NCBI GenBank assembly: GCA_015039465.1
Contig: MU130178.1
Span: forward strand, 1 to 64,000
Length of the DNA stretch: 64,000 nt
From: Phlegmacium glaucopus
Lineage: Eukaryota > Basidiomycota > Agaricomycetes > Agaricales > Cortinariaceae
Direction: 5' to 3'
A program made the position numbers and the translations under genes. Shown piece by piece: positions 1-18,259 of this stretch. Within the stretch, counting starts at the first letter, position 1; every line of letters starts with the position of its first letter. The notes under the pieces were generated by a model. That model searched no databases. It saw only the letters and a list, made by a program, of their open reading frames with translations, and was not told the DNA's origin.

Positions 1-1436
1 ATGGTGAAGGGATGGGATTCCCATGGATTCGCAGAAATTGAAGGGAAACACAGATAGGCGCTCTGACCGGGCCGCCAGTGGAGGTACCTCGACCTATGGA
101 GAGTGATTCGGAGAACATCAGGTGAGAGTACCTCGACGACAGCATCTAATTCTTTTCTGGACTTTTGCGAAGACCAAGGATTGAGATATCCAAAGTTGAT
201 AATCGCCAAGCGTAACAGACGGATGAAGTGGTCAAGTCCCCAGATTATCATAGAGGGCCAGGCACCATAATACGCGAGGCTATTGGGGATAAGACCGTCA
301 TCGTCTGATGTAATCTGGTAGTCCACATGATACCCACCCGCGGCCTCTGAGATGAAAATATACGCCCAATATAAAGATACTGGATAAATATTAGTGTGAC
401 TTCAAGCTCGCATTGAAGGGTATCCTGCTTACAAGGCGGAATTGAAATGAATCAAAAGGAATGCCTCATAATTCCGTTCTCGGATTGGTCGGATTGTCAA
501 GAAACAGAGGAGTGTGAGTGCGCTCCCTGCTGAAATACCCCAATGGATCCAGCTGTTAACAAGCGCATCATCGTCTGTGAAACTATATGTACGATCACGT
601 CAATATATTAGCGGGAAGAAGAACAATCAATACTCGCCCCAGTGTGATCTTTAAAGAAAAATTATTCAACTGTGAACACGGGTAGCTATATAGGTACTTA
701 CACGGCCTCCCGCATGAATCCATATTAAAATACATAGCACTCGTGCAGCCATACGGTGAAAATAATTCAACTATAATGAAGGCGATCAATTCGAGTACTG
801 CAGACGGGATGAGGAAAGGCACCTTGGTAAAGCTGACGCCGGTGAGCCCTGCAGGAATATATATCAGTTGGGAAAAAACATATTAAGGGAAGGGGTATAA
901 ATTTACAAGAGATAATGTTGTTCCTCATTCCGAGCGCGAGCATTATTGGGAGTTGGGAGGCAGCTATATCCCCTGCCCGATCGGCGTAATATTTCGGGGA
1001 GAATTTAATCCCTGCGATCGTAGTGGCTAGATTGGAATGTGAGTTTATGTGGATCCTTTCGTGAGAGAGAGCGCCGTAACATACTATTGACAAAGGTCCA
1101 GGAGAAAATTACTGCTATGTACCCAAGTGTTAATCCTACCTCGGCGAGGTTGAGTTTATGGGACGATCCAATAGGAACTGTCCATCTAAATGCCAGTGTT
1201 CTGGAAGAGTCGAGTACTGCTGCTGGAACTCTGGCCAGCGATACAGCTGTCCGCCGTTTCCAGCCATAAACTCGCTTCCGAGTGATGAACTTGTAATATA
1301 TGGAGAAAAAATGGCATAACGAGATCAAGGCAATAACGCTTGCGATGAAGTAAAGGACCTGTTTTGGGTAGGAGGAATCTCGAGTATTGAAGTAGTCCGA
1401 GTCAGAACGGACCACAGTGTCTTGAAAGAAGGACAT
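1..1436 (-). CDS. Ferric reductase (FRE family), copy A, 3' part beyond window
   Basis: A plasma-membrane flavocytochrome that would reduce extracellular Fe(III)/Cu(II) with NADPH through FAD and two hemes. Read on the minus strand from MSFFQDT at 1436, it shows hydrophobic N-terminal segments, a ferric-reductase heme helix with two His 13 residues apart (around 765-715), and the start of the FAD-binding domain (RPGQSAYLC near 80). The C-terminal NAD half lies outside the window. Compared with copies B and C it differs at many sites. A one-base deletion near 285 looks at first like a frameshift but falls inside an intron (GT at about 345, AG just before 285), so the reading frame is kept. It is the most diverged of three tandem paralogues. 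Function is inferred from motifs; substrate is not known. Confidence 0.8.
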
Positions 1437-1487
1437 CCTCTACATGAGAAAAGGAGGGGGAATTTTCGACAGCCCTTTGACAGCTAT

Positions 1488-1545
1488 TTTTTATCTGATT
1501 AAAGGCATTCGTTATCTGATAGCTAAAATAGTTATCTGATAGAGG
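1488..1545. promoter_or_regulatory. Cluster of three GATA-type sites upstream of ferric reductase A
   Basis: Three copies of TTATCTGAT (AGATAA on the gene's strand) lie at 1491, 1512 and 1532, within 110 bp upstream of the copy A start codon. Basidiomycete iron repressors of the Urbs1 GATA family bind GATAA-type sites near iron-uptake genes. Regulation here is an inference only. Copy C has no comparable cluster in the same position. Confidence 0.35.
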
Positions 1546-2410
1546 ATCAGCCTGAGTATCGATCAGTACTTCAGTTCCCACCACTGTCTTGTTGGATTAT
1601 AAACCGTATGTCGTTACAATTGTGTATTATCATTCCCACCACCCCTATTTCTTATTTATTTTTATTTTCTTCCTCTTTTGATCACTTTTATATATGACCG
1701 TTACTCTCCGAGAATGGTCTTATATATATATTGATATTTTCGAGTAGTATTACCTCAGTCAATTATTTCGAGAATGAGGTTACTATGTACCTATACCTTT
1801 TATTACAACAACAATGACTTAGAACCAGTAGTTACTATTTTCCCATACCTCATGATGAAAGTACAACTCAAGAATTACGTCTCGTTTTTGAGGTTGTCAA
1901 TCTCAACGTCCATGAGAGCCAAGTTCTTTGTCGTCATGAAAGTTGAGCTCTCTTGCAATTAGAGATGACAGATCATAGGGAAACGTATTAAGGTGATCAA
2001 GTAGGCTTATAGGCAGGAACAAGAGGTGACTCGCACAAGCTTTAGAAATGTATTACATAATCCATTATGTAATGAGAATGCGGCTTTTGCGCCACAGCCG
2101 TACCAGCCGCACTTCTAATTCCACGGCATCAAAGTATGGGTTGATTTACCACGCGGTGACATTTCAAACCTTTTTGGCCACGGTGTTGACTAGTTGTTGA
2201 CTTCGCTTCAAAAATCTCAGGCCGCATATGAGGAATTTCTCTCAAAAACTACCTCACCGTGCGATTTGGTACGCGTATTAATAGTGATTACCAGCCACAA
2301 GGCTACCCAAATGAATTGAGATCTAGGATAGTATAAATAACTGTTCCTGGGTGTGACATGTGACTCGACGGACCAAATTTGACCTGGGACATGTTACGAA
2401 GGCACTTGAC
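1546..2410. other. Intergenic spacer between units A and B
   Basis: No convincing gene. AT-rich, with a 22 bp near-perfect palindrome at about 2050-2071 (ATTACATAAT, 2 bp, ATTATGTAAT). Reading frames here are short and lack recognisable domains. Confidence 0.5.
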
Positions 2411-3165
2411 ACTAATGTTTTTCATTAAAAAAATCACGTTAGATGAACTCTTAAGTCGCCTGATAACCTAGTAGTGTTGGTTGTTGATGTCAGTTACTAC
2501 CGCCGAGAAGAAAAGGCTTGCATAGCACCTGATCGATTTTTTGACCTCACTTGTCTGTGTGTTGAGATGGATCTGGCTTTGTGCACTAAGGCAAGATTCG
2601 GTCTTACAGATACGTGCAACGCTCTGCTATGTACAACGGTCAGTCCTTCCGTGAGTCTCCATGCCTCTCCAATTGAATATCTTCCATGATTGGTCTTGAC
2701 GGTGAGGCCAACCCCAACAGACCCGTGTGTCATCTGTGTCTCCTTCCACACCAGACTCAGAGCCAGCCATATCACACTTATGTACAGCATCGCACAATTC
2801 ACTCCCAGGCCCTTCTCCTTCGACAAGGATGGCAAAGCAATACTCCCAGTCATGTATTCATTCTACAACAACTCTTTATCAGTATCATCAATCTCTGCAA
2901 TACTATAAGGATCAGCGGGAAATAGAGGAGGTCCAGCAAAACTGTAAAATCCCCAAAAAGAAACTGGGCCGAAAGGAAAAAGAAACCGTACTGCTCTATA
3001 CTACTCTCTCTTGCTCTCTTGTTTCATACTACTGTTCATTTCACAAGATAGAACCTTGAAAAAAAAAAAAGAAAGCATCTGCTTCAATGATTGCTTCGTT
3101 TGGTAACCGTTCTTTCTCTATTGTCAGCACACCAACTTGATATTTGGGATACCAGAGCCTACCGA

Positions 3166-5509
3166 CTATCCGAAGGCCTCAACATGGAGCGTGATAGTTG
3201 GCCCACCACGCAGAATATCCATTAGACGAGGTGTTTGAATAGTCTTCCTGGTATCATTGGCTAGAGAATGAGTACCACAAACTATAACGAAGGTTTTTTA
3301 AACCTCAACATCGGGAGGCGGGTTAAGTAGTAAATACCATTGATAGAAATATTGCCTGTAGCTTCCTCAACCTCTTGCGAAATGAGCGATTTCACATCAG
3401 GCCTTCCTCGGTGAACTTGAACAAAAGGCGATTGCAATATAGTTGAATATGACCGCAATGTAGAGCTGTCACGGGTATAAGTGACCATTTCGAAGGCATT
3501 TTCTTTGGAACTGTTGTTCAAGGTGGTGGCGGCGGTTATGTACAGTTGCACAGCGATTGAGATAGAGGGAGGTATATTTTCTAAAGCTGGTGCGAGAATA
3601 TTTGCGATCCAGTGGATATGGTCTAGCAGCGGTGTTAGTGAGAATAGAACGAGTACCCCAATAAAAAACATACCGCTGTCACGGATGGCCCAAATGAATA
3701 CGATCTTTTGACAAGAGTGTTTGCCAACTCTAGCCCGGCTGCAGGTGGGAATCAGGACAAAGGTAATCTAGGAAGGAGAAAAAAAATATTGACCGCAACA
3801 TGTCAAGGAAGAGCGGCAGGGTAAACGCAACACCAGAACCGCCTAGTGAACATGATGAATGACGAGAGCAAGATGCAGTGACAGAATAAACGAACCTGCG
3901 ATTAGGATGACCGTTTGATAACCTATTAAAAGAGGAGGAGCTCCGTAGGGGCCGTTTACAAAAACCTTGTATGTTTGATCTGATGATGCATCTTTGAGAA
4001 GCTTCGGTGTAAAACCTTTCCGCACTCGAAGGAGGAACACCAAAATGCTGTCACCTGATGAAGAGTCAGTATCAATAGTCGACATGGTGAAGGGATGGGA
4101 TTCCCATGGATTCGCAGAAATTGAAGGGAAACACAGATAGGCGCTCTGACCGGGCCGCCAGTGGAGGTACCTCGACCTGTGGAGGGTGATTCGGAGAATA
4201 TCAGGTGAGAGTACCTCGACGACAGCGTCTAATTCTTTTCTGGAGTTTTGGGAAGACCAAGGATTGAGATATACAAAGTTGATAATCGCCAAGCGTATGA
4301 GACGGATGAAGTGGTCAAGTCCCCAGATTATCATAGAGGGCCAGGCACGATACGCAAGGCTATTGCGGGATAAGACCGTCAGCGTCTGATGTAATCTGGT
4401 AGTTCATGTGATGCTTACCCGCGGCCTCTGAGATGAAAATATACGCCCAATATAAAGATACTGGATAAATATTAGTGTGACGTCAAGCTCGCAAAGGGTA
4501 TCCTGCTTACAAGGCGAAAATGAAATGAATCAAAAGGAATGCCTCATAATTTCGTTCTCGGATTGGTCGGATTGTCAAGAAACAGAGGAGTGTGAGTGCG
4601 CTCCCTGCTAATATACCCCAATGGATCCAGCTGTTAACAAGTGCATCATCGTTTTTAAAACTATGTGTACGATCATGTCAATATGTTAGCGGGAAGAAGA
4701 ACAATCAATACTCGCCCCAGTGTGATCTGTAAAGAAAAATTATTCAACTAAGGACATGGGTAGCCATATAGGTACTTACACGGCCTCCCGCATGAATCCA
4801 TATTAAAACACATAGCACTCGTGCAGCCATACGGTGAAAATAATTCAACTATTATGAAGGTGATTAATTCGAGTACTGCAGACGTGATGAGGAAAGGCAC
4901 CTTGGTAAAGCTGACGCCGGTGAGCCCTGCAGGATATATATCAGTTGCGAAAGACATATTAAGGGAAGGGATATAAATTTACAAGAGATAATGTTGTTCC
5001 TCATTCCGAGCGCGAGCATTATTGGGAGTTGGGAGGCAGTTATATCTCCTGCCCGATCGGCGTAATATTTCGGGTCGAGTTTGATCCCTGCGATCGTAGT
5101 GGCTAGATTGGAATGTGAGTTTATGTGGATCCTTTCGTGAGAGCGAGAACTGTAACATACTATTGACAAATGTCCAGGAGAAAATTACTGCCATATACCC
5201 AAGTGTTAATCCTACCTCGGCGAGGTTGAGCTCATGGGACGATCCAATAGGCACTGTCCATCTAAAAGCTAGTGTTCGGAAAGAGTCGACTACTGCTGCT
5301 GGAACTCTGGCCAGCGATACAGCGGTTCGTCGTTTCCAGCCATAAACTCGCTTCCGAGTGATGAACTTGTGAGATATGGAGAAAAAATGGCACAAAGAGA
5401 TCAAGGCAATAACGCTTGCGATGAAGTAAAGGACTTGATTTGGGTAGGAGATATCTCGAGCATTGAAGTAGCCCGAGTCAGAAGGGACAGTACCTTGAAA
5501 GAAGGACAT
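3166..5509 (-). CDS. Ferric reductase (FRE family), copy B
   Basis: Complete gene with about ten short introns, product roughly 560-600 residues, somewhat short for a fungal Fre protein. Exons join in frame across several checked introns. One near 5160-5105 joins WTFVN to TTTIAGIK, and another joins the NAD site as AGGSGVAFTLPL. Visible parts in order: N-terminal membrane helices, the heme helix FHRMAARVLCVLIWIH (His-x13-His), a second pair of His in IHFIFALFIFILGVYFH, FAD domain with RPGQSAYLCFP and HPFT, NADPH site VNGPYG and the Gly-rich motif, and a C-terminal exon with VCGTHSLAND ending HVEAFG at 3166. Likely a plasma-membrane metalloreductase for iron uptake; no ferroxidase/permease pair lies next to it. 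Start chosen at MSFFQG, conserved with copy A. Confidence 0.85.
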
Positions 5510-5589
5510 CCTCTACATGAGAAGAGAGGAGGGGAAGTTTCGACGGCCTTAAAAACGCTTCTATTCATCTAGCCAGTGTTAAGATTATT

Positions 5590-5960
5590 CCGCAATGAGC
5601 AAGCGCGAGGAACGAGCGCATGCTCATTATCGGATAAGATAACGTAACGCGGAACAATAATACGTCCTATGAAAAGAACCTCTCGTTAACTCAGGATCTG
5701 ATTCTGACACGGGAAAAAGGGTCTCTTCAGTTTCCACTGAGTTTTTTCGACCCACCCACCATCCCCTTCAGCGTCCGGTACAGCAGATTGGTTTCGGCAC
5801 ATGTTTTGCCACAACCGAGCTCTCCAGACGCTCAGGCCTTGCCCGGTTTTCCTCGCATCAACTTCAGATCGAAATCTGAATTTTTGAGATCCAAAAAAGA
5901 GGAGCCCGGGCAAGCCCTAGGCACAAACAAAGAATTCATATCCAAGAATTCTTCGTAATC
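5590..5960 (-). repeat. Dispersed repeat, transposon-derived, in inverted orientation
   Basis: Its reverse complement reappears in two pieces elsewhere. One half (about 5765-5960) matches 31540-31804, and the other half (about 5590-5765) matches 38268-38475. It holds a short open stretch on the minus strand (5913-5686) with no recognised domain, probably the 3' end of a retroelement plus LTR-like DNA. It is absent from the same position in unit C, so it was inserted after the duplication or lost from C. Confidence 0.65.
5631..5644. promoter_or_regulatory. Double GATA motif upstream of ferric reductase B
   Basis: CGGATAAGATAACG contains two overlapping GATAA cores about 120 bp upstream of the copy B start. 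It lies within a dispersed repeat inserted here, and a related core occurs in the copy of that repeat near 38430, so the site could have arrived by insertion. An iron-GATA role is inference. Confidence 0.3.
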
Positions 5961-6878
5961 ATATCTGAGTGTTCCACTACAATCAAACATTTTTTCCCTC
6001 ACCTGAATACCTCACAGCACAAGTTATCTCATCCTATGCCGCGGTAGAATTGCGGTAGAATCCGGTGGAATTTCGGTCGAGCTACCAATTTGATCCTGGG
6101 GGTGTGACCTGTGACCCGGGGACTGTTCGAAATCGAGGCGTCTCCTAGAAGAGGCAGCGCTAGCGTCCTGTTGTGCAGCGTCAGTATCGGGTAGTAGTTT
6201 ATAGAAACGGTAGGCGATCGAAATGAAAGCCTTTTAGAATGTACTAAAATATGTATGCAACAATTTTAGCTTGATCAGAACTGTAACCGTGGAAGTAGGA
6301 CCATTAAAAACCTTGTTGATCCCTAGAGAACTTGGGTCTCAACTAAGTGTTATATATGCCATTGTATCCACAGCACAGGTCAAATATCGTGATAACAATG
6401 TCAAAAGATCAACGCGAACCTGTATTTTATAGGAACGAGAATGATCGCAATGGGTAACTCTGTCGTTCAGAGAATTCTTGAGCAGGAGAACCACAAAGTT
6501 ACAGAGACAGAAAAAATGAATGATTCCAATCACAAACTAGAAAATCATAATCAGTATACCACGAAGCGCTTATGGTACAGGATACACGGACTTGACCCTG
6601 AAAACTAGAGGAGTTCTTCAAAAGCAGTACATGGTAGATCAGACTCGTGTGGTGCCCATAAAAATTATCCCGTCGATCAGCCTGTCTCATATTAACACGC
6701 CGTCCAAAGATATCTCCCTCAATTCCACCCCAGAAACAAAAAATTTAATGTTTTTTATAAAAAAATTTCACCTTAGATGAAGTCTTAAGTCGCCCAATAA
6801 CCCAGTGTTAGTCGTTGGTGTCAGTTTCTACTCGCAGAAAAGGTTCGCATAGCACCTGAACAACTTACTGGGTAAACA

Positions 6879-7110
6879 CTGAGGGAATTGCGGAAATGAG
6901 AAAAAGCTACATGAGTGCGAACACGAATTTTGGCTAAGTCCCCGTCACAAATTGGGACCCCCTTAAAATCTCCCCGTTACTCCCAGTCGTTATGCGGTGT
7001 CCCTTATTTTCAAAGTCCGATAGGTGATGTTGTCCTTGTTGTTATTGATGTTGCACCTGTTTGGATGCAGACACGGCATAACGTACTGGTAGCGAGTCTA
7101 GACGCTGGGT
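6879..7110 (+). repeat. Left direct repeat of the cassette
   Basis: About 230 bp, nearly identical to 13227-13454, starting CTGAGGGAATTGCGGAAATG and ending GACGCTGGGT. It holds one long open frame with no known domain in both copies. Differences are a few substitutions and a small indel near its start. Confidence 0.9.
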
Positions 7111-7177
7111 AGGCTCGTGACCAGCTGGTTCTTACTAATCAAACGATTCGGGCTCCGAAAGGTTCTGTAAGAACCGG

Positions 7178-7231
7178 CTGGGAGCAACGGGGAAGATTTA
7201 AGGGAGTCACACTTGTCACAAAAGACTTAGT
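7178..7231 (-). repeat. Left inverted repeat of the cassette
   Basis: Reverse complement of this segment resembles 13277-13330 (and 6934-6988 inside the left direct repeat) over about 54 bp, sharing ACTAAGTC, CTTGTCACA-like and CCCCGTT blocks. It ends only about 17 bp from the DUF6589 stop codon. A 15 bp hairpin pair (CCAGCTGGTTCTTAC at 7121 and its near complement at 7167) sits just outside. Confidence 0.75.
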
Positions 7232-7247
7232 GAAATTTCGCATAATT

Positions 7248-10200
7248 CTAAGACATCTCATCTATGCTATCATCTAAATCATCCTCGCTCTCGTCACTTG
7301 AGGTTATGTTTCCATACTCAGTGTCCATGTCCAGTGCCACATCATCAGCACCCATCGTAGCAAAGGTAGGCTCATCTTCAATAACCTCTTGTTCATATAT
7401 TCTGCTCATCCCTTCGTCACTAGCAACAGCTTCACTCTCCATATCGGCACCGTCCATGCTTGTAGCCATACCCATGGCCACCTGGCCCACCTCTGAGACT
7501 CCCTCCTGTTGTTGTGGAAAGCTTCTGGCTTCTTTTGCAGCAACTTTTTCTTTGGCTGATCCTGGAACCACAGGTTTCATTCGTCGTCGTGCCTGAAGGT
7601 TTCGGAATGCATCATTATAGTCAGAAAGTGGGTTTTTGTTTCCTCCAATGAGATTTTGTAGGCCCACTGCAATAACATCCTTTATAGGTTTGTCATCGTC
7701 ATCCAGCACTCGCCCTTTTTGGATCGTGTACACCTTGTTTTCGTTGAGACTCTCGATGAGCGTAGCAATATCCTCAGTCAGGTTTGCAGGTGCATGTCGT
7801 GTTCCTTGGTCAGCACCCAGAATATCATTAAAGTTCTTTGACAGTTGTTGAAGAACATCAACACAAGGTGCAATTGACTCAAGCCATTCCCAGGATGCGT
7901 TGGATCCATGGGCCTTATAGAAGACCTACACCACATAAATAAAGACTCGCTTGTATGTTTTTGTACTCACTTTAATCCAATAATTCAGATGCTCCTGCAT
8001 CAAGTCAATTTCAACCCAGCTGTTTGGGTTCCCGGTTGGGTTGAGCAACCAATTATTGAGTACAATGTCTCTACAAAGATAAATAAGATACAGATGTGAA
8101 TGAGAAGTCAAATAAATACCGAACGGCTGGGCTCCAGATACTTGATAGGTTATGAATGAGGTGGAGCATCTCATATGCGTACTTAGTCCTCCCATTTCCT
8201 CGAAAACTCAGAGCCCATATCTTGAGGACTAAGACCACTCTTCCAGAATCTCCTGCTTTGACCGCATCACAAAATTCTCGGGATATCAGTCCATCACGAA
8301 GGAATAGAACCGCATTCTCAAAAACCATATCACCCTCTGTTACTTCCTCTCCTGTACATGCTGCCCTATTCTTCCGTAATTCCCTGACCACAGATGTACA
8401 AGTGTATTGATCGTAAATCAATTCTGCATGGGAGACGAGAGTTGACCAGTCCCTGTACTTTGCCGTATAGCTATCAAGTGTAGGTACATTGGCGACAAGG
8501 ATGAGGCAGTGAAGAACACGAGCATAGAGGGAGGTGAAGATTAGATCACGACACACACGAAAGGAGGGAAGAGAAGTGAGTGTAATTGGGAGTCGATCCA
8601 GTCTTGTGTTGTGGAACCAGAGGGATCCTGGATTTCTAGCGCCTGTGTTCGGTTTTCCCCAGTGTGTGAAGAGAGTTCCAGTTACATCCGCCATTTTTGT
8701 GTGAAAAAGGCCAGCCAGCCATGTTGCCCCAAAGAAAGCTAGATGACCGTGTTCATGACCCGCACGAATAATTTCAATAGCACGAAACCGTGCCAGTGAA
8801 AGCTGATCCCCTGCATAGAAGCGCAGATTTTCACCAAAATTTTCTGCTGTGCCTAGATGCAACTCTCTGGTAATTGCTTCATCGACCTCAACATTTCCTG
8901 TGATTGAGGATTCGTCAATATTCCAGGCAGGTAAAGGGTGAACATCTGATTTGTGAAGCTTGATCTTATCTTTCGTGTATGGCTGGTCGTGTTCAAGATC
9001 CTTCTGGAACTTTTTGAAGGTTTCGCCACCATATGTAACAATAATCTGGAGAATTGTGAATGTAAGATGTTTTTTGAAAGCTTTCTGCTCTGAGACAGAG
9101 TGAACGATGTCCGAAATCTTGAGGGATGGAGCTTCCAAGAAGCAACGTTGAAAATCCTTTGTTTTGAGATCCTCTAGCTTTGCGTTAAACAAAGGTACAA
9201 GTGTTGCACACGTCCCGTTCTCTTGTGAATCTGTTAAATGTTGAATGAGGATGTACATTAATGATTTTCCTGAGGGGCACTCACCGTGGTAGCCAATGAC
9301 TTGTTCTGCACTGCGGAACATCATGTTTATGTTATCGTAGACTACAGAATATAATCCTGTTGCAGCAATGCGTCGAGTTTGACTGCGGAGGGCATCTGAC
9401 AGCTGGTGAAGAGTCCCCGTATAAATTGAGGGTAATGATACTTTCGGTTGTTCATTTGCATTCACATTTTTTGTCTGGCGCTTATTCTTGGTGATAATAT
9501 TGGTGTAGCTTTCACTGAGGCCCAAGGTCGACAATACTGTGATTGTTTGCCGTTGAGCACCAGATGCATATAGATATAAACCTATCATCCTCTTTGAGAT
9601 GTTGTTACCATGGCTGTACTCCCCTAGGCATGTAAGCGCTGCTGATGTAGTGACCTGAATATCTTAGGATTAATCAATTAGATTGAAGTTGAAAAAACAC
9701 GCACCATCATCGTCCTTGCTTTCCTCCGGACTGAGTGTTCTTTTTCTGCACGCCAGGATGTTGTGAATGATTCCAGTATTGTCATTGCAATCGGTGCTGA
9801 GACCTTCAATGTCTGGTTAATATTGGCAAAGCTGAAGGATTCAACAAATTCCTGATCCAAAATGATGTCTCTCGTTTGAAGGACCTTCGACTTTGTCATT
9901 GAGTGAGCCTCCCGAGCAACACGGTTGGCAATGTAGCCCACAGCCCACTCCTCTACAGCCTCTCGTGCTTGTCGTGCATTCTCGCTGCAAACCCAGAAAT
10001 CCAAAATTCGGAATACCTCATCCTTCTGTGCGAAGAATTGGTGCCAGCGGACATAACCTTGACCATGCGCAGGGTTAAAAACAAATTCCAGAAGCTGCCC
10101 AAAGCGAAGTTTCTTCTTCTCAAGGAGCTGCAAAACCTCTAATAGATCTGTTTTCTTCTGGGCCTCGGCTGCTGCTTGTACCTCTTGACGGTCCTGCTCT

Positions 10201-10583
10201 TGTTTCCGCAATCGCTTATTCTTCTTCTTCTGGCGAATATCTTCCTTGGTACCAACAAGTGGGCTGCTCCAGATGATGCCACTGTCACTTGATGGCATAG
10301 TAGGCTGCATATCCGGCAGATCCATGTTGAAACTGGACTCGTCATCTACAGGGTTAGGCAGATTAATCTGAGAATTGTTAGAGCCAGCAGACCACAATGA
10401 TTTGCGGGGTGTTGGAAAGTCATCAGTATCACTGGAGAGATTACTCAGGGGCGACGACATAGTGGTTGGGTTGGATTGTGATAATGATAATATTCTGTAC
10501 TGACCCAAGCTTTGGTAATCTAAATCTGTGGTCTCCATTTCTCGATCACTCAAACCACCCCCGATTGTCTCCATTGCTCTCAT
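7248..10583 (-). CDS. DUF6589-domain protein
   Basis: Four exons (10583-9705, 9654-8120, 8070-7971, 7925-7248), 1063 residues from the first Met; joined length divides by three. The central and C-terminal part matches my recollection of the agaric family DUF6589, with blocks such as FHTKMADVTG, GNPNSWVEIDLMQEHLNYW and KAHGSNASWEWLE. Introns are 45-51 bp with GT..AG. The N terminus (about 1-130) is Ser/Pro-rich and low complexity, then a charged basic stretch; the last ~100 residues are strongly acidic. Biochemical function of DUF6589 is unknown to me. Pairing with a helicase inside shared repeats suggests a role in movement or copying of the cassette. The first ATG is 4 bp from the helicase ATG; a start at 10460 (MSSPLSNLSS) would leave room for a promoter. 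Confidence 0.8.
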
Positions 10584-10587
10584 TTCA
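10461..10587. promoter_or_regulatory. Divergent promoter region of the cassette
   Basis: If both genes use their first ATG only 4 bp separate them, so promoter elements must overlap coding or transcribed DNA. If the DUF6589 gene starts at 10460, about 127 bp remain as a shared bidirectional promoter. No clear TATA box seen. Confidence 0.35.
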
Positions 10588-13153
10588 ATGGTCCTTCCCC
10601 ATCAGTCAGCCAGTAAATCATTGAAGCCCAAGGTGAAGCTATCAAAGGAACAAAAAGCTGCAAAAGCATGGGCTGGGGTGAAGGAAGATGAGCTGGCAAA
10701 TTTCGATCAGACAATATGCAAAAAATTCAAGTGGCCACACACACCTCGAAAATTTCAACTCGATGCTATTATATCCCAGCTACTACGGAAAGATGTTGTG
10801 GTTCATGCAGGGACAGGCTTTGGGAAGACCGCAATTGCAGCAGGGCCCCATGCACATGAGAAGGCAAAGGGAATGGTGACGTTCATGGTCTCACCCTTGA
10901 TTATGCTGCAAGAAGAGCAGGTCAGTGAACTCAACACTTACGTGGATAATCCAGATTGCTTACTTGCAGAAATTGGTGAAAGGTGATGACGTTCAAAGAG
11001 GAGTTTGGGTTGATGGCAACAGCCATTAATGGGACGCGAGGTGGATGTACTTCGGAAATTATGGCAGTGAGGAACTACTATTTGTTCATGAGCCAGGAAC
11101 TCACATACCAATGAAGGACATATGCAAAGGAAAATGGCAAGTGGTCATGATCTCCCCAGAACTGATACTGTCAAAAAGATTTGTCAAAAACGTCCTTCGA
11201 AATTCTGAAATAATTCCTAGCATACTATCAATTGTAATTGATGAGGCGCATGTCATTTCGCACTGGGGATCTGGCTTCCGAAAGAAATATGGCGCCCTTG
11301 GTATCCTTCGCGCACTTGTCCCAAAAGGTACCCCCTTTGTTGCAATGTCAGCCACTCTGTCAGACCGTGTTCGGAGGGATGTACTGTACAAGCTACAGTT
11401 CAAGACAGGGACCTTCCTTGACCTTGTCATTGGAAATGACCGCCCCAATGTCTCACTGGTTGTACGTGCTATTCAAAACCCAATGAACACCTTCAGCGAC
11501 CTCGACTTTCTAATTCCAGCTGGCATCACCAATCCACAACAGGTCAAGCAAGCATTCGTCTATGCTGATCAGGTTAGCACTTCCGATGGGATGGAGAAGA
11601 GACTATACAGTATCTCACCAAAGAGCTTCTACGAGGCTGGAATTATTCGACCATACAGCGCTGCATACAGTGTCGAATACCGAACAGAGGTTATGGCATT
11701 GTTCAAAGCAGGCATTGTTCGCATCCTGATTTGTACAGATGCTGCTGGAATGGTACATCATTATTTTTTCATACGTCTCAAAACTTAAAGAAGAGTAGGG
11801 ATGCAACATACCGAATATCGACATTGTCGTGCAATGGAAATTACCGGCCTCTGTCTCAACATTTGTCCAACGAGCTGGAAGGGCCGCAAGGGGTCCAGGA
11901 CGAATTGGCCTTGCTGTGCTTCTTGTTGAAAAATCAGTCTATGAGGCCGATCTTTCATGCTTGGATTCTGCGTTCGAAGGCACAAAGTCAAAAAAGAGCA
12001 AGGGTGTTCGGCAGTCATCAACATACCCAAAAGCAACTAAACAATATGCAATCAGTCGTGGCCTGCTTCGAGGAGCATATGGAGGTGGTACATGCGACGA
12101 GATTTTGAAGAAAGACGAGGTTGCGCTTGATCGTGAGTCAATGGATGAAGGGTTGTACACCCTTGTTCAGACAGGGAAATGCCGACGAAAGGTGTTAACA
12201 ACTGTCTTTAACAATGTCAGTCCTTGTAAGATTTTTAGTGATTAAACGCAGCTGTAAAGATACTCAACCGTTCCTCAGGTCCAACTGTTCCATGCTGCGA
12301 CCTTTGTGATCCAACCTTGCTTGACCTAGTAAGACCTGGTTGTCCAGATCCTTCACACCGTAGTCAGAATCGGAGAACTGGGATTGTCAATGAGGATGTG
12401 GCAGCAGAGATAAGAGGCTGGCGCTCACAAGTTTGGGCGAGAGATTACGGCGAGTCACTTTTCGGTCCTGAAGGCATCTTGAGTGACGACATGGTGAAAA
12501 ATTTGGCATCAGTTGGTCCTATCCTTCGTCTTGCAGAGCTGGAATATGTCGTTGGTTCACAATGGGCATGGTTTGGACAATACGGTGACGATTTACTTAC
12601 GGCATTATTAGCCATGTCAATACCAGCAATGACACCAAAAGCTCCAGAGGCAAGGGGGACGAAGCGCCTGGCCGCACAGGAAGTAAATTTGGGATGCTCA
12701 AGCGATGGGGGAAGGAACAAACGAGCTGCAAAAAGATCTCGTTTCGAGCCTCAAGAAGCGCAAGAAGCACCCTCGCCGGGTCCCACACCTGTCAATGTTA
12801 ACCGCACCTTCACACCACCCAACCCTGTCACATATCTCGCAACACCCACACATTCTCGAGCACAGCCAATGTTGACATCAACATTATCAGCGCCACCTAC
12901 ACTACCGACAACACCTATGACCCATCATGCGGCAACACCTCTCGGAATGAACCCATACTCGAGGTTGATGATGCCATACATTCCAACCTACTACTCACCT
13001 TATCCATACCATATGCCCACCTTCCACTACCCAAATACCCCTCCAACTCAGTGGAGAACACCATCTTACATACCCAATGCTAGCTCCGAGTCATCATCGA
13101 GTCAAAGCTTAGACTCGAATTTACCTTCTCAGGACCCTTCTTATCCTCAGTAG
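10588..13153 (+). CDS. RecQ-like ATP-dependent DNA helicase
   Basis: Five exons (10588-10920, 10983-11066, 11117-11752, 11799-12225, 12279-13153) give 784 residues in one frame. Superfamily 2 motifs: Walker A HAGTGFGKT (about residue 72), DEAH box (about 181), SATL (about 216), AAGMGCNIPNIDIVVQWKLP and motif VI QRAGRAAR (about 375). A Cys cluster PCCDLCDP (about 498) resembles a zinc-binding part. The tail from about 600 is rich in Pro, Thr, Ser and Tyr without known domain. The helicase core is shorter than cellular RecQ and lacks a visible RQC/HRDC. Such RecQ-like genes are multicopy in agarics. What looks like a frame break at 10980 is resolved by an intron at 10921-10982. Likely unwinds DNA during cassette mobilisation (inference). 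Confidence 0.85.
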
Positions 13154-13226
13154 GCACATTTATAGAATATATATAATGTTAAGTCTTGTATTTGATAACT
13201 CATATATTAAAAAATTTGAGGAAAGG

Positions 13227-13454
13227 CTGAGGGAATTGCGGAAATGAGAAAAAAGCTTGCGCGAACACGAATTTTGACTAAGTCCCTGTCACAAATTGGG
13301 ACCCCCTTAAAATCTCCCCGTTACTCCCAGTCGTTATGCGGTGTCCCTTATTTTCAAAGTCCGATAGGTGATGTTGTCCTTGTTGTTATTGATGTTGCAC
13401 CTGTTTGGATGCAGACACGGCATAACGTACTGGTAGCGAGTCTAGACGCTGGGT
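13227..13454 (+). repeat. Right direct repeat of the cassette
   Basis: About 228 bp, nearly identical to 6879-7110. It begins 74 bp after the helicase stop codon. The segment 13277-13330 inside it is the inverted partner of 7178-7231. The match to the left copy stops sharply at GCTGGGT; 13455-13576 is unmatched DNA before unit C homology resumes at 13577. Confidence 0.9.
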
Positions 13455-14144
13455 TGTAATTTGGGCAGTCAATGACAATAGTTTTAATTTACGCGCGGCA
13501 AACAACCATAAGCACGTGCAATCACGGAAGTTACCGGAAACTTACAAGAACGAGCCCCTAAACTCGTATTCTGTAAATGGATCTGATTTTGTGCACTAAG
13601 GCAGGATTTGGTAGATATATGCAAGGCCCCGCTAGGTGCAACAGTCACTCCTTCCATGCCTCTCTAACTCAATACCTTCCTTTATTGGTCTTGACTGTGA
13701 GGCCAACCCCAACAGACTGGTTTGTCATCCACACCAGACTCCGAGCCAGCCATGTCACCCTTATGTGTAGCATCGTACAATTCACTTTCAGGCACTTCTC
13801 CTTCGACAAGGATGGCAAAGCAAAGTCATGTATTCATTCTGCAACAACTCTTTATCGGTATCATCAATTTCTGCAATACTAAGTATAAGGATCAGCGGGA
13901 AATAGAGAAGGCTCAGTAAAACCGTAAAATATCCAATAAGAAACTTGGTCGAAAGGAAAAAGAAGCCGTACTGCTGTATACTATTCTCTCTCTCCTGTTT
14001 CATACTATGCTGTTCATTTCACAAGCTAGAATTTCGAAAAAAAAAAAAAGAAAACATCTGCTTCAATGATTGCTTCGTTTGGTAACTGTTCTTCCTCTAT
14101 TTTCAGCACACCAACTTGATGGTTAGGAAGCCAGAGCCTACCGA

Positions 14145-16476
14145 CTATCCGAAGGCCTCAACATGGAGCGTGATAGTTGGCCCACCACGCAGAATATCCA
14201 TTAGACGAGGTGTTTGAATAGCCTTTCTGGTATCATTGGCTAGAGAATGAGTACCGCAAACTATAACGAAGGTTTTTTAAACCTCAACATCGGGAGGCGG
14301 GTTAAGTAGTAAATACCATTGATAGAAATCTTGCCTGTAGCTTCTTCAACCTCTTGCGAAATGAGCGATTTCACATCAGGCCTTCCTTGGCAAACTTGAA
14401 CAAAAGGCGATTGCAGTATTGTAGAGCTATCACGGGTATAAGTGACCATTTCGAAGACATCTTCTTTAGAACTGTTGTTGTCCAAGGTGGTGGCGGCGGT
14501 TATGTACAGTTGCACAGCAATTGAGATAGAGGGAGGTACATTTTCTAAAGCTAGTGCGAGAGCATTTTCGATCCAGTGGATATGATCTAGCAGGTATTAC
14601 TGAGAATAGAACGAGTACCATAATCAAAATACATACCGCTGTCACGGATGGCCCAAATGAATACGATCTTTTGACAAGAATGTTTTCCAGCTCTAGCTCG
14701 GCTGTAGGTGAGGGATCAGGACAAAGGTAATCTAGGAAGGAGAAGAAAAATATTGACCGCAACATGTCAAGGAAGAGCGGCAGGGTAAACGCAACACCAG
14801 AACCGCCTAGCGAACATGATGAATGACGAGAGAAAGATGCAGTGACAGAATAAACGAACCTGCGATCAGGATGACCGTTTGATAACCTATTAAAAGGGGA
14901 GGAGAACCATAGGGGCCGTTTAAGAAAACCTTGTGTGTTTGATCTGGTGAGGCATCTTTGAGAAGCTTCGGTGTAAAACCTTTCCGCACTCGAAGGAGGA
15001 ACACCAAAATGCTGTCACCTGATGAAGAGTCAGTATCAATAGTCGACATGGTGAAGGGATGGGATTCCCATGGATTCGCAGAAATTGAAGGGAAACACAG
15101 ATAGGCGCTTTGACCGGGGCGCCAGTGGAAGTACCTCGACCTGTGGAGGGTGATTCGGAGAACATCAGGTGAGAGTACCTCGACGACAGCGTCTAATTCT
15201 TTTCTGGAGTTTTGGGAAGACCAAGGATTGAGATATACAAAGTTGATAATCGCCAAGCGTATGAGACGGATGAAGTGGTCAAGTCCCCAGATTATCATAG
15301 AGGGCCAGGCACGATACGCAAGGCTATTGCGGGATAAGACCGTCAGCGTCTGATGTAATCTGGTAGTTCATGTGATGCTTACCCGCGGCCTCTGAGATGA
15401 AAATATACGCCCAATATAAAGATACTGGATAAATATTAGTGTGACGTCAAGCTCGCAAAGGGTATCCTGCTTACAAGGCGAAAATGAAATGAATCAAAAG
15501 GAATGCCTCATAATTTCGTTCTCGGATTGGTCGGATTGTCAAGAAACAGAGGAGTGTGAGTGCGCTCCCTGCTAATATACCCCAATGGATCCAGCTGTTA
15601 ACAAGTGCATCATCGTTTTTAAAACTATGTGTACGATCATGTCAATATGTTAGCGGGAAGAAGAACAATCAATACTCGCCCCAGTGTGATCTGTAAAGAA
15701 AAATTATTCAACTAAGGACATGGGTAGCCATATAGGTACTTACACGGCCTCCCGCATGAATCCATATTAAAACACATAGCACTCGTGCAGCCATACGGTG
15801 AAAATAATTCAACTATTATGAAGGTGATTAATTCGAGTACTGCAGACGTGATGAGGAAAGGCACCTTAATATAGCTGACGCCGGTGAGCCCTGCAGGATA
15901 TATATCAGTTGCGAAAGACATATTAAGGGAAGGGATATAAATTTACAAGAGATAATGTTGTTCCTCATTCCGAGCGCGAGCATTATTGGGAGTTGGGAGG
16001 CAGTTATATCTCCTGCCCGATCGGCGTAATATTTCGGGGCGACTTTAATTCCTGCGATCGTAGTGGCTAGATTGGAATGTGAGTTTATGTGGATCCTTTC
16101 GTGAGAGCGAGAACTGTAACATACTATTGACAAATGTCCAGGAGAAAATTACTGCCATGTACCCAAGTGTTGCTCCTACCTCGGCGAGGTTGAGCTCATG
16201 GGACGATCCAATAGGCACTGTCCATCTAAAAGCTAGTGTTCGGAAGGAGTCGACTACTGCTGCTGGAACTCTGGCCAGAGATACAGCGGTTCGTCGTTTC
16301 CAGCCATAAACTCGCTTTCGAGTGATGAACTTGTAAGATATGGAGAAAAAATGGCACAAGGAGATCAAGGCAATAACGCTTGCGATGAAGTAAAGGACTT
16401 GATTTGGGTAGGAGATATCTCGAGCATTGGAGTAGTGCGAGTCAGAAGGGACCGTAGTACCTTGAATGAGGGACAT
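14145..16476 (-). CDS. Ferric reductase (FRE family), copy C
   Basis: Complete paralogue of copy B, same exon-intron plan and end (HVEAFG). Start at MSLIQGTTVPSDS aligns with copies A and B. The same heme helix, FAD site (RPGQSAYLCFP), NADPH site (LNGPYGSPPLLIG) and C-terminal exon are present. Differences from B include a short deletion near 14418 that removes a few residues (SSTILQSPF versus a longer form in B) and changes around DHIHWIENALALALEN. All splice joins checked by eye stay in frame, so it is probably functional. Neighbouring SmD1 is transcribed in the same direction. Confidence 0.85.
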
Positions 16477-16804
16477 CTTCTACTTGAGAAGGGGTAGAGG
16501 AGAAATTTCAACTGTCTTATAAGTCTAGCCAATGTACCAGAGGATCGTAAGCTCACCTATTACGCGGTGGGATTACGGTAAAATTTCGGTCGATTCCCAG
16601 TTTTTGGTGTCAACTGGTATACCAACTTGACTGGTTTGAGTGGGCGGTTGCCTTCAGCATGGCAGATCCGCGTTCTGTCAGCAGATCAAGTGTCCAACAG
16701 ATATCTTACGACACTATTAGGGAGTTCACTGACCTGCATACGCCACGACGTTTATTTTAAAGCTGATCCAGGCACCTGCAGTTGTGAGTGGATGGGGGTC
16801 GGAG

Positions 16805-16948
16805 TCCGATCGACTAGAAGCTTTCTAACTGGATTCATAGGGTTCTGTAGACGACGCCTGTTGGTTTTAAGAGATTTGGTGGAATGAAAGACGGCGGACA
16901 GACCTTTGGACTTTTGGTTCGACGGGCGGCCAAATGTTGGCACTCTGC
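16805..16948 (+). repeat. Dispersed repeat shared with 43055-43218
   Basis: Blocks GAAGCTTTCTA, GGATTC/TTAGG, GACGCCTGTT, AATGAAAGA and CCTTTGGACTTTTGGTTC recur in the same order at 43055-43218. It lies in the part of unit C that unit B lacks, so it looks like a fragment of an inserted element. Confidence 0.55.
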
Positions 16949-17598
16949 GTGCGATCCGAGGACTATTCTCCAGCGGACCGGCTAAATAGATAACATGTTA
17001 AAATTGTCCAAGGCACCTGCATGGAAATCGAGACGTCCGGATCCGAAAGCCTCTTCCGTCTTGTTGTTAATCAGCTGCCAGTGGGGCCTTGGGAAGTTCA
17101 GAGCGACCTACCTTACCAGTCTCGGATCCTCCAGCGTCAGTATCGGGTAGTAGTTTAGAGAAACGGTAGGCGATCGAGATGAAAAGCCTTTTAGAATGTA
17201 CTAAAATATGTATGCGGCAATTTTAGCTTGATCAGAAGTGTGACCGTGGGGGTAGGACCATTAAAAACCTTGTTGATCCCTAGAGAACTTGAGTCTCAAC
17301 TAAGTGCTGTATTCAACGCAAACTTCTATTTTATAGGAACGAGAATGATCCCAATGGGTGACTGCGGCCTGTCGTTCAGACAATTCTTTTGAGCAGGAGA
17401 ACCACAAAGTTACAGAGACAGCAAAAATGAATTATTATAATCACAAACTAGAAAATCACAATCAGTATACCACGAAGCGCTTATGGTACTGAGGATACAC
17501 GGACTTGACCCTGGAAACTAGAGGGGTTCTTCAAAAGCAGTACATAGTAGATCAGACTTATGTGGTGCCCATAAAATTTATCCCGTCGATCAGCCATC

Positions 17599-18259
17599 CT
17601 AGAACCCTCGTCCTCTTCCACGACCACCACCCCCCCGTCCACCACCCCCTCGTCCACGTCCACCACGTTCAGGACCCCCTCGCCCCCTTCCACGACCTCT
17701 AGCGTCATCCTTCTTCCGACCTTTTGGCTTGGGCGCATCATCTACGAGAAGCGTATCCAGAGGAAGTGCATCAGGGAGTACAAAGTAACGGATGTTGTTT
17801 CCACGAATTGATAAGGAATCAAGGGAGGCTGGATCTCGGTTACGCATGGTCATCTTGACCGTTTTCAAATGAGTATTCATCTGCATGTCTACGCCTAGAA
17901 AAAAATGTTCAAAGAAATAGGTGAGGCCTCCATCAACGGTAAAATGGGATAGCGACGCACCAGTTATTGTTCCATGAACCACTGATCCGTTCTTCAGCTC
18001 GATCGTGACCGTTTCATTGTTCAATTTCATTAAAAAACTGTTTGTCATAGCATAGGCACATAAGTCAGCATTACCATCTAGACACAAAGTTCCGGCGCCG
18101 AAGATCAAAAGATACGAAACATGTGCAGATATATGATCAACACATAGTTTGTAAGAGTGAAATTAGAGCGCAGTGGCTTTCGAATAATGGTCATGAGAGA
18201 GACCAAGTACATGATGTCGCTCAAAAATGCGAGATGAAGGCTTACCGAACGAGCTTCAT
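17599..18259 (-). CDS. smd1: Small nuclear ribonucleoprotein SmD1
   Basis: Core Sm-ring protein of spliceosomal snRNPs, nuclear. Exons 18259-18246, 18037-17961 and 17894-17599 join to 128 residues. The 14-nt first exon encodes MKLVR, giving the canonical start [20 protein letters not shown]. The Sm1 part continues with [10 protein letters not shown], then [15 protein letters not shown], the Sm2 signature [16 protein letters not shown], and an Arg-Gly-rich tail (from about residue 98) typical of methylated SmD1/D3. Length is close to the human protein (119). The first intron is about 208 bp, long for this window. DNA just downstream (17475-17597) was copied into unit B at 6566-6685 without the coding part. 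Confidence 0.96.

Follow-up and report, generated by a model that had tools for sequence, protein, structure and literature searches.

The first 64,000 nucleotides of contig MU130178.1 of the agaric Phlegmacium glaucopus, referred to here as the window, carry at 7110-13444 an intact-looking DNA transposon that contains a DUF6589 gene and, on the opposite strand, a RecQ-like helicase gene. A sequence-only reading of the interval 6879-13454 had proposed that these two genes form a cassette bounded by both direct and inverted repeats. The evidence set out below makes it highly probable that the element is an agaric DNA transposon, most likely of the AcademH type, of which DUF6589 is the DDE transposase, which carries a helicase, and whose internally deleted copies are moved in trans. 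Its core features are as follows.

7110..13444, no strand: whole transposon, 6335 bp, autonomous-looking, with both genes open; ends fixed by the common ends of other copies and by the 9-bp duplication
7101..7109, plus strand: left target site duplication, GACGCTGGG, perfect 9 bp
13445..13453, plus strand: right target site duplication, GACGCTGGG, perfect 9 bp
7110..7124, plus strand: left terminal inverted repeat (TIR), TAGGCTCGTGACCAG, 15 bp, imperfect
13430..13444, minus strand: right TIR, TAGACTCGCTACCAG as read on the minus strand, 15 bp, imperfect
7248..10583, minus strand: DUF6589 gene, putative DDE transposase; exons 10583-9705, 9654-8120, 8070-7971 and 7925-7248; 1063 amino acids from the first ATG
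10588..13153, plus strand: RecQ-like superfamily 2 (SF2) helicase gene; exons 10588-10920, 10983-11066, 11117-11752, 11799-12225 and 12279-13153; 784 amino acids

The ends were located by searching the same genome with the interval of the sequence-only reading, within which many partial copies were found to begin or stop at two common points. Eighteen copy places (L039-L056) were extracted for reading the ends; eight held both ends within the extracted stretch, and an exact 9-bp duplication was present in seven of these (L040-L044, L046 and L047), the one without it being L039. The right ends of L048 (contig C41) and L049 (C61) were fetched afterwards and agree with the shared ends, while L045 and L050 break off at contig ends and L051-L056 are fragments. 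A copy on C181, whose first nine bases are the same as those of the window element, is flanked by the duplication GGGCCCTAC, which was found by looking for a duplication beside matching termini and is therefore partly selected (four candidates were printed). Exact 9-bp duplications, of varied sequence, thus flank 11 of the 12 copies with both ends read, and the stretch 7110-13444 is a real DNA transposon. The C41 copy (C41:177989-185978; L048, L078 and L122) is an 8.0-kb element with the same type of ends and the duplication GGCGTAATC, spanning a convergent DUF6589/helicase pair, and matches on C9 score equal to those of this gene pair.

Copies with the same ends and a deleted interior are present in the same genome, measuring 1420-1607 bp (L039-L043), 1103 bp (L046 and L047) or, with additional internal sequence, 2630 bp (L044). 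In L039-L043, at most ~740 bp remain at the left end and 706 bp at the right, with gaps in some copies. Four of them (L039, L040, L041 and L043) were compared with the window element. Identity to it is 98-100% in the outermost 120 bp of the left end and ~180 bp of the right end, and mostly 80-93%, in places lower, in interior blocks; L046 and L047 are more distant (~75% on the left, and 89% over 185 bp on the right). The mutual identity of L039, L041 and L043, at 99.0-99.5%, speaks for recent movement. Empty sites were sought by joining the flanks of 12 insertions with a single copy of the 9-mer and searching the genome, 40 of 358 candidates being scored. At the L042 joint, related sequences elsewhere read straight through (e.g., C145:647877-648044 and C185:433183-433275), and at the L044 joint they do so without change in length (C10:171221-171332, C60:35407-35518 and C138:430738-430841), while the remaining ten joints gave one-sided matches only, among the matches listed.

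The genome contains 181 occurrences of the head motif TAGRCTCGYKACCAG, at most one mismatch being allowed, compared to 29 of the reversed control. Among 40 further termini that were fetched, six belong to very short elements (L084, L087, L099, L101, L103 and L118), which measure 66-98 bp, have both ends and are flanked by an exact 9-bp duplication; this search demanded such a duplication and therefore says nothing on misses. Their ends are of the TAGACTCG or TAGGCTCG type, and for mobile DNA a length of 66 bp is strikingly short.

The two divergent genes, spliced by visual inspection of open frames and GT..AG signals, are both open, and the statement in the sequence-only reading that they are intact after splicing is upheld. 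Pfam family PF20231 (DUF6589) matches the main open reading frame (ORF) of the minus-strand gene at 8071-9588 with an E-value of 1.4e-103. A modelled DUF6589 homologue exhibits an RNase H-like strand order with conserved D, D and E residues (D400, D576 and E788 in the window protein), albeit with weak E-values, and upon structural re-alignment its top 16 rows were all DDE transposases or RAG1, the nearest solved folds being the hAT (Hermes) and P element transposases at ~10% identity. No Academ structure figured among the fold matches listed for this model, which excludes nothing. The model thus supports a DDE fold, and DUF6589 is most likely the DDE transposase of the element. The earlier suggestion that it might act as a recombinase is therefore likely to be correct, while the idea of a unit that uses a helicase instead of a classical transposase is not borne out, since the DUF6589 homologue models as a DDE enzyme and the element terminates in ordinary TIRs beside a 9-bp duplication. 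If the model holds, the novelty is mainly that the helicase's neighbour, a protein of unknown function, itself looks like the transposase.

Pfam still files DUF6589 as a family of unknown function, and no paper linking DUF6589 or PF20231 to a transposase was found among those searched; PF20231 returned only an unrelated optics paper, and the founding account of AcademH may use another name. These circumstances, together with the first rank of hAT and P element among the structural neighbours, would suit a DDE transposon with a RecQ helicase outside Academ, i.e., a superfamily of its own that DUF6589 would define and that has no name yet. Such a placement is considered unlikely, as the helicase, the 9-bp duplication and the fungal range all agree with the descriptions of AcademH, as far as the excerpts drawn on below extend.

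The plus-strand gene has a RecQ as its top PDB match (E 2.2e-28), matches TIGR00614 at E 6.7e-44, though under the curated cut-off, and contains the Pfam domains DEAD (E 1.6e-18) and Helicase_C (E 3.3e-15); by these matches the helicase is RecQ-like. In the same genome, 76 DUF6589 matches merge to 30 loci, and of 27 helicase matches, 22 have such a locus no more than 10 kb away, where ~0.3 would be expected; eight of the 30 loci have no helicase match within this distance. Twenty of the linked pairs are convergent and two, those of the window and of C181, are divergent. Pairs of DUF6589/helicase matches on C30 and C147, and likewise on C186 and C241, have similar scores on separate contigs and represent either recent duplicates or two assembled haplotypes.

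A protein search returned at least 643 DUF6589 relatives under the threshold, and organism names were available for 114 of the 120 best, all of which we take to be mushroom-forming fungi, as far as the names were recognised. When these 120 best were set beside the 120 best of 3508 helicase hits, 43 species-and-contig pairs from 33 species were shared, whereby contigs of equal size within a species were taken as the same contig and presence on a shared contig, rather than the separation of the two genes, was scored. No equal size joined two different species, and ten of the 43 shared contigs are shorter than 60 kb, three of them shorter than 8 kb. In Leucocoprinus the two genes occupy the adjacent locus tags NP233_g1884 and NP233_g1885. 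As judged from their positions, the DUF6589 and helicase genes travel together, and the proposal of a mobile unit composed of both is correct.

The element is inserted between units 2 and 3 of an array with three similar units (window 1-6820 and 13884-17595). By open frames alone, each unit reads as several ORFs, one of which in units 2 and 3 matches FAD_binding_8 (ferric-reductase-like); an ORF for an LSM-domain protein adjoins the array on the minus strand (17599-18108). The sequence-only reading had pointed to another array unit lacking the element, and unit 1 indeed matches both element flanks, at 2413-2532 and 2567-2920, without the element; however, it does not constitute a clean empty site, as the 9-mer GACGCTGGG is absent from window positions 2300-2950.

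The direct repeat of ~230 bp that had been taken for a cassette end is likewise real, with 6917-7110 matching 13261-13454 over 194 ungapped nt at 99% identity (longer if a gap is allowed), but its left copy lies outside the element and belongs to the following feature.

6874..7100, plus strand: stump left by the right end of a second, non-autonomous copy; it abuts the left duplication and lies outside the element

The stump finishes in GCGAGTCTA, followed by GACGCTGGG, and all 230 bp of 6874-7103 agree exactly with the right end of a copy on C131 plus its first three flanking bases. C131, when reversed, is 96.7% identical to window 3414-6895, continues with ~165 bp of host sequence that is lacking in the window, and then presents GACGCTGGG and the non-autonomous copy. 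By this alignment, C131 is another copy or allele of the window locus, and its layout therefore indicates that a non-autonomous copy once sat at the window target. In the window, a deletion has apparently taken away the host flank and most of that copy, sparing 227 bp; the left direct repeat would thus be the remainder of a non-autonomous copy that occupied the same target and was later shortened by a deletion from the left. A search for an empty allele of the window site, with the C131 left flank joined to the window right flank, matched only the two halves, meeting at the 9-mer (in the same scoring of 40 of 358 candidates). The C131 copy itself (C131:406928-408347, L039) has unlike flanks, and the right one, GACTATATA, corresponds to the left flank of the copy at the end of contig C242 (L050), so that L039 is either a recombinant between two insertions or an assembly join of two sites.

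The 99% repeat does flank the two genes, as would be expected of a composite element that has long direct repeats as its borders, which was the cassette originally envisaged and would resemble KolobokP, whose ends are long terminal direct repeats. This is rejected as very improbable: the left repeat is a truncated stump without an outer terminus, starting in mid-element sequence at ~6874 beside host DNA that in C131 runs to a full left end. Furthermore, the right end is repeated in the left flank of none of the 11 other both-end copies (200 bp of left flank, and 1000 bp for C181), among them those on C181 and C41, which both carry the gene pair. For the direct repeat, this is the outcome that the sequence-only reading had itself named as refuting its proposal. 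Genome-wide, the head-to-tail junction with exact ends is present a single time (variants would escape), for which reason it looks accidental, and an origin of the tandem junction from a concatemer or circle was discarded on the same grounds.

Inside the TIRs, both ends of the element contain further repeats.

7175..7240, plus strand: left arm of a subterminal inverted repeat, compared with 13268-13333 reversed
13268..13333, minus strand: right arm, pairing with 7175-7240
7121..7181, no strand: left subterminal palindrome, arms 7121-7135 and 7167-7181, 15 nt, 93% complementary
13332..13427, no strand: right subterminal palindrome, arms 13332-13345 and 13414-13427, 14 nt, 93% complementary

The inverted pair corresponds to the one of ~54 bp noticed in the sequence-only reading, which is genuine (78% over 67 columns, E 3e-9) but subterminal, the true ends being the 15-bp TIRs. 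The palindromes of the window element sit just inside each TIR, and none of 300 shuffles was as good at either end. Among six autonomous ends, this result was obtained at four, with values of 30/300 at the C41 left end and 24/300 at the C181 left end; at the right ends of C41 and C181 the best stem lies further in and not beside the TIR. A first test with a 12-nt arm gave a weak signal (at least 10/12 in 4 of 45 termini, versus 17 of 1752, or 1.0%, when swapped). In a second test, which used an 8-nt arm anchored to CTGG and was devised after the sequences had been looked at, at least 7/8 was reached by 12 of 47 termini, in 6 of 16 arm groups, versus 2 of 1954 arms swapped between families; the other 35 termini fell below this value, 19 of them for lack of a usable anchor. 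Palindrome sequences differ between related families, while the pairing that closes on CTGG is partly kept. As the anchored test was framed post hoc and most termini fall short, the pairing is only a lead. It is tentatively suggested, as a rather doubtful idea, that the termini are hairpin substrates which the RecQ helicase extrudes or unwinds to let the DUF6589 transposase assemble and cut; if true, this would explain why the lineage carries a helicase at all. The subterminal palindromes, with their sequence differing between families, are a loose end of the analysis.

Palindromes near the ends and a helicase on board are also what a helicase-driven, Helitron-like rolling circle with DUF6589 as an accessory protein would offer. 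Helitrons insert without target duplication, and the perfect 9-bp duplications, along with the TIRs, contradict such an assignment. Helitrons combine a HUH/Y1 nuclease with their helicase (PMC12730594, in excerpt), while the helicase here is RecQ-like, DUF6589 is the sole Pfam match in the scanned ORFs of its gene and in homologue P0002, and no HUH family appeared among the hits of the ORFs scanned. A Helitron-like element is accordingly given very little credence.

Under the preferred reading of a DDE transposon, the DUF6589 transposase would bind to the 15-bp TIRs as well as to the outermost, conserved 120-180 bp and cut there, and the element would have been inserted at a 9-bp staggered target, repair turning the stagger into the 9-bp duplication. 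The RecQ-like helicase that the element brings along, with its gene on the opposite strand, would most likely open the DNA at the ends or aid repair after transfer, and internally deleted copies with the same ends would be moved in trans. As its exact ends and its target duplication are known, the window copy makes it possible to test what a helicase carried by a transposon does. If DUF6589 may be named a DDE transposase with a RecQ partner, many mushroom 'hypothetical proteins' become transposon genes and many RecQ genes are explained.

With regard to known systems, the hAT (Hermes) and P element transposases are closest in fold to the modelled homologue. hAT transposons duplicate 8 bp and are not known to carry a helicase gene. 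KolobokH, likewise a fungal DNA transposon with a RecQ helicase on board, has been recorded in fungi only and makes 4-bp TTAA duplications (excerpt of PMC9587614). The window element differs from it in its 9-bp duplications of varied sequence, which contradict this assignment, and in its two separate, divergent genes, and membership of KolobokH is accordingly most improbable.

The AcademH lineage of Academ DNA transposons reportedly goes back to Kojima in 2020 (Mob DNA 11:15). AcademH is described as combining a transposase with a helicase and generating duplications of 9 or 10 bp, while AcademX generates duplications of 3 or 4 bp, the difference being tied to their helicase and nuclease (excerpt of PMC10045372); AcademH is of low copy number in Basidiomycota (PMC10799480, likewise in part). 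The present element resembles AcademH in its RecQ-like helicase gene and in its 9-bp duplications, and it is the match in helicase, duplication length and fungal host that makes the assignment fit. As to the DDD/E transposase expected of AcademH, the model of the homologue, its conserved D/D/E and its structural neighbours favour one here, though at weak E-values. The element is therefore most likely of the AcademH type, with which it is compared by description only, and DUF6589 would then be akin to the Academ transposases. By the same partial account (PMC10045372), it is probably not a new kind of mobile element, as had been proposed. The gene arrangement in this genome, where 20 linked pairs are convergent and those of the window and C181 divergent, can be set beside AcademH only at the level of such descriptions. 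Finally, putative non-autonomous Academ elements are widespread in the agaric Marasmius oreades (PMC8290104, in the part available), and the deleted copies in P. glaucopus resemble these, again by description, in being non-autonomous insertions, probably of Academ type, that are common in an agaric.
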